Assembly: GCA_902386205.1 (NCBI GenBank)
Contig: CABMIH010000002.1
Coordinates: forward strand, 1 to 33,106
Source: an uncultured archaeon
GTDB lineage: Archaea; Halobacteriota; Methanosarcinia; Methanosarcinales; Methanoperedenaceae
Direction of reading: 5' to 3'
DNA: 33,106 bases
The position numbers were made by a program, and so were the translations under genes. Shown here one piece after another: positions 12,017 to 26,067 of the stretch. How positions within the stretch are numbered: position 1 is the first letter of the stretch; each line of letters begins with the position of its first letter. A model generated the notes under the pieces. It saw only the letters and a list, made by a program, of their open reading frames with translations. It was not told the DNA's origin and did no database searches.

Positions 12017-12039
12017 TCAGCAGGCGTTGCATCGGTGGG
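11884..12039 (+). pseudogene. Transposase fragment (rve integrase core, IS3-like)
   Basis: The plus strand in one frame reads NINQLWVADITDIQLSKE and then [17 protein letters not shown]. This is the start of the integrase core (rve, DDE) of IS3/IS481-type transposases, whose usual form is NQVWVTDITYI...YLxxVIDLFSRRxVGW, including the first two catalytic Asp regions. There is a stop at 11881 and no start; the match ends at about 12036, where the gyrA 3' end begins on the other strand. It is a short remnant of an insertion sequence. No terminal inverted repeats could be seen. Confidence 0.72.
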
Positions 12040-14533
12040 AGCTATACCCCTCCAGCTTCTTCTGCTCCCCATCCCCATTCTCCTCTTCCTTCGCAAGCCT
12101 CGCCACGCCCACGACCCTGTCTCCTCCCTCAACATTCATTATCTTCACGCCCTGCGTGTTCCTTCCCTGCAAGCGGATGCCTTTGACCGGTACGCGGATG
12201 ATGATGCCCTTCGAGGTCGTAACCATGATCTCGTCATCTTCATGCACGCTCCTTATATCCACCACGTTCCCATTCCTCACGTTCACATCAATGGTGATAA
12301 CGCCCTGCCCGCCGCGGTTGCTGGTGCGGTACTCTTCAAATGCTGTGCGCTTCCCGAAGCCGTTTTCCGTGACTGTCAGAAGGCTTGTGCCTTCCTCAAC
12401 GATAGCCGCGCTCACAACTTCGTCCTCTCCTACAAGCTTCATTCCCCGGACGCCGTAGGCGCCGCGTCCCATATCCCTTACATCATCCTCGCCAAACCTT
12501 ATGGCCTTTCCATGCTTTGTGCCGACCACAACTTCTTTGGTGCCGTCCGTGAGCTTCACGGATACAAGTTTGTCCCCTTCATCCAGAGATATTGCGATTA
12601 TCCCTGATTTCCTGGGATTTGAGTATTCGGTGAGCGCGGTTTTCTTGGCTGTGCCTTTTTTCGTGACCATGAGGAGGAAATGTTTCTCATCGAACTTGCT
12701 GATGGGCACATAGGCGTTGATCCTTTCACCCTGCTCTATCTGGAGCAGGTTGACTATCGCCGTTCCGCGCGCCTGCCTGCCTGCTGTCGGAATCTCGTAC
12801 ACCTTAAGCCAGTACACCTTGCCCCTGTCCGTGAAGAAAAGGAGGTAGTCATGAGTGTTGGCGATGAAAAGGTCGCCCACGAAATCCTCTTCCTTTGTCT
12901 CCATACCTATTACTCCCTTCCCACCGCGGCGCTGCTGTTTATATGCATCCACAGCTATGCGCTTTATATAGCCGCTGTTCGTTATCGTGATAACGACGTC
13001 TTCTTTGGGTATCAGGTCCTCTGTGACAAGTTCACCTGTACTTTCGATTATCTCCGTCCGCCTCTTATCGGCAAAGCGTGCTTTGATATCGGCAAGCTCG
13101 GTCTTTACCAGATTGAGTATCTTGGGTTCGCTTGCAAGAAGTTCTTTCAGCCATGCAATGGTCTTTAAGAGCTCGCTGTATTCAGCGTCTATCTTTTCGC
13201 GTTCAAGTCCTGTCAGGCGCTGGAGTCTCATGTCAAGTATCGCCTTTGCCTGTTCTTCGCTCAATTTGAACTTCGCGACAAGACCCGCACGCGCTTCGTC
13301 TGGCGTTTTTGAGGCTTTTATGAGTTTGATGACCTCGTCAATGTTGGAAAGCGCGATCCTCAGGCCTTCGAGGATATGGGCGCGCTGCTCTGCTTTCTTA
13401 AGTTCGAACTGGCTGCGCCTTATGATAATCTGTTTCCTGTGGGCTATGTAGTGGACTATGAGATCTTTTAATGGAAGAAGCCGGGGCTGGCCATCAACGA
13501 GAGCGAGGTTGATGACGCCGAAGGTATCCTCAAGCTGCGTGTGAGAATACAGTTGATTGAGAATGATATTGGCCTGCGCCTGCCTTGAAACTTCCATGAC
13601 GATCCTGATGCCATCCTTGTCCGATTCGTCGCGCAGGTCAGTGATGCCTGCTATCTTTTTATCCCTTACAAGCCCGGCGATCGTCTCTATCAGTTTTGCC
13701 TTGTTCACCTGGTAGGGCAGTTCTGTAACAATGATCTGTTCCTTGTTCTTTATTTCCTCTATCACGGCGCGCGCACGCATCTTGATCGAACCGCGGCCTG
13801 TGGCATACGCGTCGCGTATCCCCTGCCGCCCGTAGATGAAACCCGCAGTTGGGAAATCCGGTCCCTTGACCACTTTTATGAGTTCATCAAATCCGACATC
13901 CGGCCTGTCGATGACCATTGTTATGCCGTCTATCACCTCGCCAAGATTGTGGGGCGGCATATTGGTCGCCATGCCAACCGCTATCCCTGTTGAGCCGTTG
14001 ATCAGGAGATTGGGAAGCTTGCAGGGAAGCACGGTCGGCTCTTTTAAGGACTCATCATAGTTGGGCACGAAGTCCACGGTCTCCTTGTCGATATCCACAA
14101 GGATCTCTTCAGCTATCTTTGCAAGCCTGACTTCAGTGTATCGCATCGCAGCGGCGCTGTCCCCATCAATACTTCCAAAATTCCCCTGCCCGTCTATCAA
14201 TGGATAGCGAAGCGAAAAAGTCTGGACCATCCTGACGATCGTATCATAGACAGCTATGTCGCCGTGCGGATGGTATTTACCCAGGACATCTCCCACTATC
14301 CTTGCAGATTTCTTGTATGGTTTGTCCGAGGTCATCCCCTGCTCGTTCATTGCATAAAGGATGCGCCTGTGGACGGGTTTCAGGCCGTCCCTGACATCCG
14401 GCAGCGCGCGCCCCACGATGACACTCATGGCGTAGTCGATATACGAGCGTTTCATCTCGTCTTCGATATTGATGGGGCTGATCTTTTCCTGTACGAGTTT
14501 CTGCTGGGGGTTTTTGGGTTCCTGGTCGGTCAT
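12017..14533 (-). CDS. gyrA: DNA gyrase subunit A
   Basis: Breakage-reunion subunit of type IIA topoisomerase; with GyrB it introduces negative supercoils. 838 residues. The N-terminal domain has [20 protein letters not shown] and the catalytic tyrosine Y132 in AAMRYTE, the coiled-coil tower follows, and the C-terminal beta-pinwheel has the GyrA box QRRGGKG (534-540) needed for wrapping and true gyrase activity. The very end, SSHRCNAC before TGA, is encoded by bases that read as transposase on the other strand, so the natural tail was probably replaced by an insertion sequence remnant. No intein. Gyrase in archaea is of bacterial origin by established view. It lies 277 bases from the MNT gene, separated from gyrB by a two-gene cassette. 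Confidence 0.97.
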
Positions 14534-14810
14534 GGTGTATCAGCTCGAATTTATTGTAGTTTTTCTCACTGCAGAGTAGGCTAAGAACAGCAGTTCATAG
14601 ATAGGAATATAAAATCCATTATTAGCCGGTTTGATGTGAGATAGAACACGGATTGCACGGATGACACGGATACACACGGATTTCATATCCGTGGAAATCC
14701 GTCCAATCCGTGTCATCCGTGTTCTTTGCGGTGACTTATTTGATTCTGATGAAAAAACTTCAAATCTGCGTTCATCCGCGTTTATCTGCTGTTTTTTTAA
14801 TAAATCTGTA
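14534..14810. other. Spacer between MNT gene and gyrA holding repeat sequence
   Basis: Mostly occupied by the palindromic repeat at 14644-14724 and its degenerate continuation (about 14765-14790, TCTGCGTTCATCCGCG). A 92-codon frame reads through it on the minus strand, but it is repeat translation. gyrA's promoter must be in the remaining part; I see no clear TATA box. Confidence 0.5.
14644..14724. repeat. Palindromic repeat built of ACACGGAT-type units
   Basis: Imperfect 81-base palindrome. The left arm starts GAACACGGATTGCACGGATG and the right arm, read on the other strand, starts GAACACGGATGACACGGATT; the centre is CACGGATTTCATATCCGTGG. The core ACGGAT recurs about every 8-10 bases. From memory, such CACGGAT palindromes occur dispersed in many archaeal and bacterial genomes and often give spurious small proteins. 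A genome-wide copy count would confirm it as a dispersed family. Confidence 0.7.
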
Positions 14811-15128
14811 TTATCCATAAATGACCTTGCCCTTTCTCATAACAGAAGTAATAAACGCCGCTGATGCGCCTTTCCAGTTCTCAACTTCTTCGGGTGTATA
14901 AACAATTATATCTTTAGGAATTCGAAAATCACGGAGTAACTTCCTTATTTGTAAAATCCTTTTATGCATTGGCTCATCTGATGGCATTATCACCAATAAA
15001 TCCAGGTCGCTGTCTTTTGTCGGGGTCCCATAAGCGTAAGAGCCGAAGAGGATTATCTTTTCTGGATGTACTCCGCTGACGATGCGGTTTTTAATTTTCT
15101 GGATGAGTTCATCGGTTATTGGTTGCAT
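14811..15128 (-). CDS. MNT-type minimal nucleotidyltransferase
   Basis: A 105-residue protein of the polymerase-beta-like minimal nucleotidyltransferase family. The signature GSYAYGTPTKDSDLDLLV (residues 29-46) gives the GS motif and the two metal-binding aspartates D41 and D43. Such MNT proteins usually act as antitoxins of HEPN RNase toxins by adenylylating them. No textbook HEPN gene is adjacent; the preceding gene (15152-15754), 23 bases upstream in the same direction, is the only candidate partner. Family confident, role inferred. Confidence 0.85.
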   Translation of the reverse strand: MQPITDELIQKIKNRIVSGVHPEKIILFGSYAYGTPTKDSDLDLLVIMPSDEPMHKRILQIRKLLRDFRIPKDIIVYTPEEVENWKGASAAFITSVMRKGKVIYG

Positions 15129-15151
15129 AATCTTATTTTATTTCTATACCC

Positions 15152-15754
15152 TCAATCATTTTTGTCGGCTATAATTCTTGGATAATTCTCCAAGAATTTG
15201 CCAAATCCCCAAAGGGCATCATCAATTTCCTTTTTTTCTTTTTCTGTAATTCGATTTGTTATAGTTGCAATCTCATTAAAAAAGTCCATATATTTTTGAT
15301 AGGTCTCCCAATTATATACAGGCAATTCGTTCTCTCCATTGTGTATATAATTATAAGCTCTATATGCATACATATCCGCTATCGGACATTTTTCATATTT
15401 TAATATATGAAGGAAGAAAAGATTCCAGATGTACCCATTCTCAAAAAATTCAAAACTGTAATTGTATATTTCTTCCAATTCATTTTTGGAATTACCATAT
15501 GTACTAATTTTTTTTTGAATCTCAGACAATTTATTTTTGAGATTATTGAGTGATTCCTGTTTTTTATCGGAAAGGCGCATTCCATTTTTCCATAAGAATA
15601 AATTCTGTATGTTGTCCTCAGTTAATTTATTGATTGGATTCAGATTTGTAAAATAAATCGTATCTTTATTTTCATCAGAAATATAAAATTTTCTCCAGGC
15701 TTTTATAAAATCATCAACTGTTGCATCTTCTAATTTTAGTATTTGTAGATTCAT
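15152..15754 (-). CDS. Hypothetical protein between gyrB and the MNT gene
   Basis: A 200-residue, mostly helical, AT-rich-coded soluble protein that I cannot name. Recognisable segments are NIQNLFLWKNGMRLSDKK (about residues 48-65), a Lys/Glu-rich helix, then YIWNLFFLHILKYEKCPIAD and YAYRAYNYIHNGE. The last includes R-x5-H, which is compatible with, but does not prove, the Rx4-6H catalytic motif of HEPN RNases. It starts 8 bases after the gyrB stop and precedes the MNT gene by 23 bases. Its base composition is visibly more AT-rich than gyrA and gyrB, suggesting acquisition as a cassette with MNT. Start ATG 15754. Confidence 0.6.
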   Translation of the reverse strand: MNLQILKLEDATVDDFIKAWRKFYISDENKDTIYFTNLNPINKLTEDNIQNLFLWKNGMRLSDKKQESLNNLKNKLSEIQKKISTYGNSKNELEEIYNYSFEFFENGYIWNLFFLHILKYEKCPIADMYAYRAYNYIHNGENELPVYNWETYQKYMDFFNEIATITNRITEKEKKEIDDALWGFGKFLENYPRIIADKND

Positions 15755-15762
15755 ACAATCCC

Positions 15763-20960
<5,198 letters not shown>

Positions 20961-25230: not shown

Positions 25231-26067
25231 GTGGATGTGTACCGTTTTTATACGAAAAATTTCAACCTTGACCATACCCTCTCCTGCGGCCAGGTCTTCA
25301 GGTGGGAAAAAAAAAACTGGTGGAGTGGCGTGGTCAACGGCGCGGTCATAAGGATAAAACAGGAAGGTAATGAACTTATTATAGATTCATCCCTTGAAAA
25401 AAAATTCATTATGGATTATTTCAGGCTTGACGACGATATGGAAACGATATATTCGCAAATCAATAAAGATAAATTGATGGATTCATTAATTAAAAAATAC
25501 AGAGGCATGCATCTCATCCGGCAGGACCCCTGGGAATGCCTGGTATCATACATCTGCTCAAGCAACAACACCATCAGGAACATCACAAACTCCATCAGGC
25601 ACATGAGCGAGTGTTTTGGTAAAAATATCGCAAGAGGTTATTTTTCCTTCCCCTCGCCCCGGCAGCTTGCTGGAATAGATGCATGCGACATGGAGCAGTG
25701 CAAACTCGGGTTTCGCGCCCCTTATGTCCTTGGCATCGCGAACACTATTGTAAACGGCGAATTTGACCTTTACGGGATTAAAGACATGTGCTATGGGCAG
25801 GGGCGCGAGGAACTTGTGAAGTTAAAAGGCGTCGGGAACAAGATAGCTGATTGCGTGCTGCTTTTTGCGTTCGGGAAACTTGAATCTTTTCCCGTGGATA
25901 CGCATATTGAACAGATCATGGACAGGTTTTATGGTAATAACTGGAAAAACGTAAAAAAAAGTAAGAAGAGGGAGGAAATTGCCGACTTTGCCCGCAGGTA
26001 TTTTGGGGAATATTGCGGGTATGCGCAGGAATATCTGTATATGGAGGATATGGGTAACCAACCATAA
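25231..26067 (+). CDS. ogg: 8-oxoguanine DNA glycosylase/AP lyase (OGG1 type)
   Basis: A 278-residue base-excision repair enzyme removing 8-oxoguanine opposite C. The N-terminal OGG domain shows LDHTLSCGQVFRW (13-25) and QDPWECLVSYICSSNNTI (98-115). The helix-hairpin-helix and Gly/Pro-Asp loop read LKGVGNKIADCVLLFAFG then FPVDTHIEQIM: K204 and D223 stand 19 residues apart, exactly as K249 and D268 in human OGG1. The start is GTG 25231. This is the eukaryote-like OGG1 family rather than the short archaeal Ogg2 or AGOG. The gene is followed after 32 bases by RPA in the same direction. Confidence 0.92.
   Translation: MDVYRFYTKNFNLDHTLSCGQVFRWEKKNWWSGVVNGAVIRIKQEGNELIIDSSLEKKFIMDYFRLDDDMETIYSQINKDKLMDSLIKKYRGMHLIRQDPWECLVSYICSSNNTIRNITNSIRHMSECFGKNIARGYFSFPSPRQLAGIDACDMEQCKLGFRAPYVLGIANTIVNGEFDLYGIKDMCYGQGREELVKLKGVGNKIADCVLLFAFGKLESFPVDTHIEQIMDRFYGNNWKNVKKSKKREEIADFARRYFGEYCGYAQEYLYMEDMGNQP

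Follow-up and report, generated by a model that had tools for sequence, protein, structure and literature searches.

Mobile cargo is usually thought to be shut out of the operons of essential genes, gyrase among them. Which genes, then, lie between gyrB and gyrA in a Methanoperedens genome (G000; designations starting with G and L are our handles for genomes and loci, respectively), and is this arrangement peculiar to that genome? The window analyzed here is the whole 33,106-nt stretch of contig CABMIH010000002.1 from this genome, a draft of 88 contigs. A preliminary description of this DNA had reported about 1.2 kb between the two gyrase genes, containing an AT-rich gene (hereafter the orphan gene) 8 nt past the gyrB stop codon, a gene for a minimal nucleotidyltransferase (MNT) and a palindrome, and had proposed a toxin-antitoxin (TA) or defence module hitched to the gyrase operon. 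All of these features were recovered (Table 1). The distance is 1,229 bp, and the order on the minus strand is gyrB, 8 nt, orphan gene, 23 nt, MNT gene, repeat-bearing DNA with the palindrome, and gyrA; the GC content is 28% for the orphan gene, 52% for gyrA and 45% for the whole window. The idea of a TA or defence-like module hitched to the operon is supported by comparative data across relatives. Based on these data, we propose that the gyrB-gyrA junction is a turnover hotspot, and that its content in the window probably consists of a predicted glycosylase-fold, defence-like gene and a solitary type A MNT gene (MNT-A) whose HEPN toxin gene was deleted. We read the cassettes in the window as partly decayed.

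The genus sample comprised 31 genomes, of which 29 had a gyrA match (G004 and G029 had none). Junctions with both borders on one contig, referred to as bounded, numbered 26 and came from 25 genomes; in G030, G010 and G011 the contig stops short of gyrB, and the junction of G028 is partial. Comparison of the bounded junctions shows a hotspot, with variable content between the same two core genes. At 24 of them, gyrB and gyrA were split by 0.65–5.8 kb, and at the other two (G001 and G015) the genes were 2–3 nt apart with nothing between them. Another genus of the same family also carries inserts, namely a TPR gene in G031 and MNT-A with a gene for a 185-aa protein in G033. In other families (best-scoring 18 of 47 genomes), the gyrB-gyrA gap measured −21 to 176 bp at 15 of the 18 loci, and at the remaining three, searches 1.5 kb or ~10 kb upstream of gyrA revealed no gyrB. 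The assumption in the preliminary description that archaeal gyrB and gyrA are usually adjacent thus holds outside the family, but not within the genus, where a split, which had escaped that description, is the usual state.

The content of 29 gaps (the 24 split bounded gaps and those of G030, G010, G011, G031 and G033) was assessed by matching 16 query proteins. All 96 located genes or fragments were on the gyrase strand. Because the queries came from plus-strand open reading frames (ORFs) of the gaps, minus-strand ORFs were checked as well: 52 of the 56 such ORFs of at least 60 aa lie mostly opposite located genes, and the other four are 63–87 aa long. The comparison also shows a consistent arrangement of the modules. 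MNT genes occurred in 22 of the 24 split bounded gaps and fall into three types (A, B and C); wherever the module is intact, each type is paired with a HEPN of its own (PF05168 E 6.9e-25, 1.2e-28 and 1.2e-17). In the eight gaps holding two or three full-length types, the order was C, A, B; a truncated A fragment precedes C in G020. At least one HEPN gene was judged intact in 13 of the 24 gaps. The rest of the cargo encodes TPR proteins, a PLD nuclease similar to NgoFVII and DrmC, and a helicase-HNH protein reminiscent of restriction helicases; several other products are uncharacterized, two of them PD-(D/E)XK-like by eye. Repeat matches were present in 13 of the 29 gaps. The gap of G008, the closest genome to G000 by GyrA (97% identity), contains MNT-C, a cut HEPN-C gene, repeat DNA and a cut MNT-B gene. 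This gap and that of the window thus share no module type.

The DNA directly before gyrA is nearly constant. Among the 24 bounded gaps that carry an insert, 22 have at least nine of the 11 bases of GAGCTGATACC before the gyrA ATG; seven bases matched in G012, four to five at the two clean junctions, and the misplaced gyrA start of G023 made its motif unreadable. This motif resembles a Shine-Dalgarno sequence. In some loci with HEPN-A beside gyrA (e.g. G007 and G020), the HEPN-A stop codon is part of the motif. Retention of a putative Shine-Dalgarno site would explain why HEPN deletions stop at the motif.

How did the MNT gene of the window come to stand alone? Its nucleotidyltransferase motif GSYAYGTPTKDSDLDLLV is intact, with the GS...D.D residues, and it matched the NCBIfam model MntA_antitoxin with an E of 2.7e-9 (36.9 bits, below the cutoff of 60). 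In relatives, the true partner of MNT-A is a 131-aa HEPN protein (HEPN-A; PF05168 E 6.9e-25) encoded directly downstream, with the HEPN-A start overlapping the MNT-A stop (ATGGATAAT or a variant). In the window, nine bases of HEPN-A persist over the MNT stop codon, a remnant that the preliminary description had missed, followed by a short stretch and then the repeat; beyond ATGGATAAT, an adjacent HEPN toxin gene is absent from the locus. The open frame through the repeat-bearing DNA (part of an ORF at 14540–14818) contains no HEPN sequence. As shown by comparison with relatives, the predicted toxin gene was thus deleted in the window, and repeat-bearing DNA occupies its place. Such losses recur. 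Among 17 full-length MNT-A loci, HEPN-A was intact in eight and not intact in nine: truncated in three (G014, G013 and G003), replaced by the gene for the 185-aa protein in two (G024 and G033), and replaced by repeat-bearing DNA in four (G000, G025, G022 and G010).

Despite the missing toxin, solitary MNT-A copies look to be constrained much like paired ones, with ratios of nonsynonymous to synonymous divergence (dN/dS) of about 0.1. With synonymous sites near saturation and considering finite values, the median dN/dS was 0.087 for MNT-A without HEPN (36 pairs) and 0.091 for paired MNT-A (26 pairs). The best-timed solitary pair, G025 and G022, which share the same insertion, showed a dS of 0.30 and a dN/dS of 0.097. 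Elsewhere in the window genome, seven clear HEPN genes and one weak match were found, the closest being 34% identical to HEPN-A, and seven of these eight matches have an MNT-type gene in their vicinity.

Comparisons of dS for gyrB, gyrA, the orphan gene and MNT-B among G000, G026, G006 and G005 point to exchange of modules. Between G005 and G026, the dS of MNT-B was 0.41, compared with 1.49 and 1.27 for the flanking gyrB and gyrA, respectively, suggesting that the MNT-B module has moved from one lineage to another. G026 and G006 (L010 and L011) have identical first 190 gyrA codons and divergent gyrB (dS 0.77), which could reflect recombination or assembly chimerism.

The second question concerns the orphan gene. 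Homologues at the gyr position were found in G026, G006 and G005 (58–66% identity), each before MNT-B and HEPN-B; the orphan and the G026 copy differ by a dN of 0.22 and a dS of 1.51. Outside the gyr locus, the archaeal homologues found were one each in G008 and G010 and two additional weak ones, in G008 and G233. The G008 and G010 copies (L013 and L014) represent a second orphan subfamily (31–35% identity), whose neighbourhood is the same in the two genomes. An orphan match was obtained in 3 of 392 genomes sampled from the phylum, the window genome and G008 included, and this patchy archaeal distribution makes horizontal acquisition likely. A genomic scan yielded 27 loci with 24 bacterial genome homologues, 20 of them labelled Bacteroidota; two plasmid homologues and one homologue on a viral contig were also found. 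Single-protein scans of genome and viral contigs with the orphan yielded no relatives, and none were found in phages. Across 29 family members, no meaningful Pfam match was obtained (23 families matched at E up to 5); no NCBIfam or PADLOC model matched the window orphan, and a PDB sequence search with an 8-row orphan profile gave two weak, unrelated matches. The 29-row alignment contains 15 invariant residues, including W110, H116, P124, D127, D178 and G185, and the window orphan keeps every one of them; the family is spread over phyla.

The AlphaFold2 model of the orphan protein is all-helical (mean pLDDT 91.7, pTM 0.86). In a Foldseek search of the PDB, OGG and MutY glycosylases took the first five places (best E 0.12, with a probability of 0.98). 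Every one of the 50 rows shown by VIA-align, which took its candidates from Foldseek's own list, was a glycosylase too, and the top ten had Z 7.0–7.5 and root-mean-square deviations of 4.2–5.1 over 155–164 residues. Nothing significant was obtained in a fold search of BFVD, where the helical domain of a 5-hmdU DNA kinase was the weak leading row. Alignments with two sets of EndoIII-like archaeal profiles (P 0.018 and 0.19) both place D127, invariant in 29 of 29 homologues, on the Asp of VDTHV, which is the catalytic residue in EndoIII; in the better alignment, DALWGFGKFL also falls on the helix that comes next. Against a pooled glycosylase set of 28, P was 0.016. We regard this as moderate evidence for a predicted HhH-GPD DNA glycosylase fold, because no Foldseek E was below 0.001, all Z scores were below 8 and VIA-align was limited to Foldseek candidates. 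A true DNA glycosylase of OGG type (OGG_N and HhH-GPD) is encoded at 25231–26067 of the window; its profile showed no resemblance to that of the orphan.

Restriction or defence genes were found near 13 of the 24 genomic orphan homologues when neighbours within three genes were scanned; the first 20 neighbour proteins were picked by eye, with no control set of random genes. Type I restriction genes were located near four homologues (L080, L088, L097 and L100), and a type I R-like helicase with a PADLOC candidate near L086. A type IIG-like enzyme and an ATPase accompanied four others (L083, L092, L094 and L096), with the enzyme of L083 and L094 identified by its 58% identity to that of L092. The remaining loci carried a McrC-like nuclease and a PADLOC candidate (L084), a PADLOC candidate (L082), AbiH (L103) and ApeA (L099). 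The four type IIG-like loci form a Bacteroidota gene set of type IIG-like restriction enzyme, AAA ATPase and orphan homologue, which is possibly an undescribed restriction system. A 154-aa protein is added in three of the four, and a relative of it without Pfam match occurs at L082. At L084 (4956–6182, Litchfieldia), the orphan domain is fused to an extra C-terminal stretch, beside a McrC-like PDDEXK_7/DUF2357 gene.

Table 1 Features of the gyrB-gyrA junction in the window, listed in the reading direction of the minus strand
Feature	Position	Strand	Description
gyrB	15763–20670	−	1635 aa; left border of the hotspot; Pfam DNA_gyraseB, Toprim, DNA_gyraseB_C
Orphan gene	15152–15754	−	200 aa; predicted HhH-GPD (DNA glycosylase) fold; candidate catalytic Asp127
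MNT-A gene (type A minimal nucleotidyltransferase, MntA-like antitoxin)	14811–15128	−	105 aa; PF01909 E 7.9e-13
Remnant of the HEPN-A toxin gene, ATGGATAAT (M-D-N)	14810–14818	−	Junction comparison, 17 MNT-A loci
Repeat-bearing DNA in place of the HEPN-A body	14540–14810	−	Comparison with relatives
Palindromic copy of a dispersed repeat	14643–14725	none	39-nt arms, 5-nt loop
Conserved GAGCTGATACACC	14534–14546	−	Upstream of the gyrA ATG; putatively Shine-Dalgarno-like
gyrA	12017–14533	−	838 aa; right border of the hotspot; PF00521 E 4.9e-171

The palindrome is imperfect (arms 14643–14681 and 14687–14725, 79% complementary) and folds far better than shuffled sequences (z −7.9). Its repeat occurs at 16 distinct places in the genome, the window copy included and some of them short (counted from 25 match rows). 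An Rfam search with the palindrome returned sub-threshold matches to eukaryotic families alone; on this basis, the element was not taken for a known RNA. The window gyrB contains two intein-like insertions (two Intein_splicing stretches and LAGLIDADG_3 in Pfam), and its LAGLIDADG and HTH matches fall within the C-terminal one. In G020, G017, G019 and G002 (L039–L042), gyrA is interrupted near residues 120–130 by an intein-like stretch within one long frame. An mcrB gene is also present in the window, in keeping with Methanoperedens.

The preliminary description had suggested that the orphan is a divergent HEPN toxin paired with the adjacent MNT. The orphan is indeed adjacent, small and helical, it contains the R-x5-H element RAYNYIH at residues 132–138, and it lies directly upstream of MNT in four of four gyr-locus copies; its bacterial homologue L099 stands beside an ApeA-type HEPN protein. 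The cognate HEPN-A of this MNT, however, is a different gene that was lost in the window, and three of the orphans adjoin an MNT-B for which a HEPN partner is already present. Nor does the R-x5-H element mark the family: H138 was present in 11 of 29 homologues, R132 and H138 together in just these 11, and the pair was absent from the three other gyr-locus copies. Neither gyr-type MNT nor HEPN was found in the fetched neighbourhoods, some with short flanks, of 29 non-gyr homologues, and no MNT-A relative lies near the G008 and G010 copies. No HEPN family was matched by the window orphan at E values up to 1, and none is included in the 23 families of the 29 members; hhalign comparisons with the gyr-locus HEPN and MNT profiles yielded P values of 0.28 and 0.33, respectively. 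In the fold lists for the predicted structure of the 200-residue protein, DNA glycosylases of the HhH-GPD type lead, although absence of HEPN from such lists does not exclude it. Judged by the two observations that the preliminary description had named as refuting, a fold unrelated to HEPN and homologues without association with MNT, the toxin-partner idea does not hold, subject to the fold assignment being a prediction; we consider it very improbable. Slightly less credence still goes to the idea that MNT adenylylates gyrase or a gyrase-linked protein and is therefore kept in the operon without a toxin. The location of MNT and its persistence without HEPN would fit, and a Fic toxin attacks GyrB by AMPylation according to the portion available of a published account (PMC13327609). 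Yet two genomes have a gyr junction of 2–3 nt, two split gaps lack MNT, and most HEPN matches elsewhere in the window genome have an MNT-type gene nearby.

A considerably stronger competitor, although we still regard it as unlikely, holds that both genes are debris, i.e. decaying remnants in a recombination-prone gap with no present function. HEPN was lost, repeat DNA moved in, several other gaps contain truncated genes, and neither gene occurs in the gap of G008. Against decay stand the two intact ORFs, the close dN/dS medians of solitary and paired MNT-A, and the complete set of invariant residues that the window orphan shares with its cross-phylum family. An assembly or binning artefact of draft genomes would be conceivable because the window genome is in 88 contigs, the relatives are mostly drafts, repeats can mis-join and the identical gyrA starts of G026 and G006 could be a chimera. 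MNT-bearing gaps recur, however, in 22 bounded junctions, co-directionally and with near-constant sequence before gyrA, which leaves hardly any room for such an artefact. A more far-reaching proposal would make the orphan a new HhH-GPD-fold defence family acting by base excision or base flipping, and associated with restriction, within an order-conserved TA array that is expressed with gyrase and anchored by gyr against loss, solitary MNT antitoxins serving as anti-addiction guards against the HEPN toxins of incoming elements. We rank this proposal somewhat above debris but still treat it as doubtful.

Several observations weigh against the proposed hotspot reading with its glycosylase-fold gene and solitary antitoxin, which rests on sequence and predicted structure. 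Unrelated folds appear from Foldseek rank 6 onward; a VIA-align Z below 8 may, per the tool, reflect a mere common helical arrangement; the profile matches to the EndoIII-like sets were weak, and a MagIII-like set gave nothing useful. A helix-hairpin-helix LPGxGxxTA is not evident in the orphan, where the aligned stretch is GYIWNLFF-like. R132, the arginine of the R-x5-H element, is conserved in 26 of 29 homologues. The enrichment near restriction and defence genes is a judgement, because the 13 of 24 loci have no random-gene control; none of the neighbours tested at the other 11 bacterial loci was identified as a restriction or defence gene. For one of these (L095), this concerns the single neighbour protein tested; at the other ten (34 neighbours), HigB, PIN and integrase matches were obtained and no restriction family appeared among the 25 of 50 families shown. 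The orphan neighbours in G008 and G010 look metabolic by eye (glutamine amidotransferase-like and nitrogenase-like). The split gaps of G012 and G002 lack MNT, and MNT divergence could mostly predate the loss of HEPN, except in the G025-G022 pair.

On the hotspot reading, HEPN/MNT modules and defence-like cargo would be gained, exchanged and lost at the junction in the direction of gyrase transcription. As the inserts are co-directional with gyrase, they are likely co-transcribed, and could thus be expressed without harm to gyrA, which would keep its own ribosome site. TA modules may make the array hard to lose. The orphan protein, apparently horizontally spread and often restriction-associated, probably binds, flips or excises bases of foreign or modified DNA, most likely within a restriction-like defence; from the modelled fold we infer a glycosylase-like action, in which the orphan might itself cut glycosidic bonds. 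MntA adenylylates HepT, according to the part of the report available (PMC7641770). The MNT-A of the window most likely survives as a solitary antitoxin that would act in trans, and may have been kept since it neutralizes HEPN toxins that other loci encode or that mobile elements bring in.

How does the locus compare with known systems? Defence and TA islands and hotspots between core genes hold variable cargo between conserved genes. The present hotspot differs in lying inside a two-gene operon, with co-directional inserts and full-length TA modules in one order. HEPN/MNT (HepT/MntA, type VII) TA systems share the MNT fold and motif, and the MNT genes of relatives overlap a PF05168 HEPN gene; the window, by contrast, lacks the HEPN, up to three modules per gap occur within the gyrase operon, and the score of the 105-aa MNT falls short of the NCBIfam cutoff for MntA. 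With HhH-GPD glycosylases (MutY, OGG, EndoIII and MagIII), the orphan would share an all-helical fold over nearly its full length, and in weak alignments its invariant Asp lines up with the Asp of VDTHV in EndoIII-like proteins. It differs from them in having no Pfam match, no LPGxGxxTA hairpin and its own invariant W55-K56-N57 and W/H/P/D pattern. PabI belongs to the HALFPIPE superfamily and has a fold that we take to differ from that of the orphan, and no match to it appeared in the orphan fold lists. Restriction glycosylases of the PabI type couple base excision to restriction-modification, as far as the accessible parts of the respective papers state (PMC4357717, PMC10273834, PMC7806768). 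Proteins with a glycosylase fold in defence loci are also exemplified by the antiviral DNA glycosylases Brig1 and Brig3. Going by excerpts from the publications on them, they belong to the uracil-DNA glycosylase superfamily (PMC11078745, PMC13160076), and the solved Brig3 structure has a mixed alpha/beta fold, in contrast to the all-helical orphan model; the orphan would thus be of separate origin. Among the matches listed for the open-access literature, judged by listings and the openings of abstracts, no paper dealt with a gyrB-gyrA hotspot of Methanoperedens.

The finding is thus a genus-wide hotspot and not a one-off, with an uncharacterized restriction-linked protein family as a second result. 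Assuming that gyrase is essential, its operon serves as a landing site for TA and restriction-like genes across the genus. Toxins were repeatedly lost there and antitoxins kept, which makes the persistence of solitary antitoxins a directly testable question. The orphan family links a DNA-glycosylase-like fold, as predicted, to restriction loci in several bacterial phyla, and if its members excise bases, they would form a helical analogue to the antiviral glycosylases described recently.

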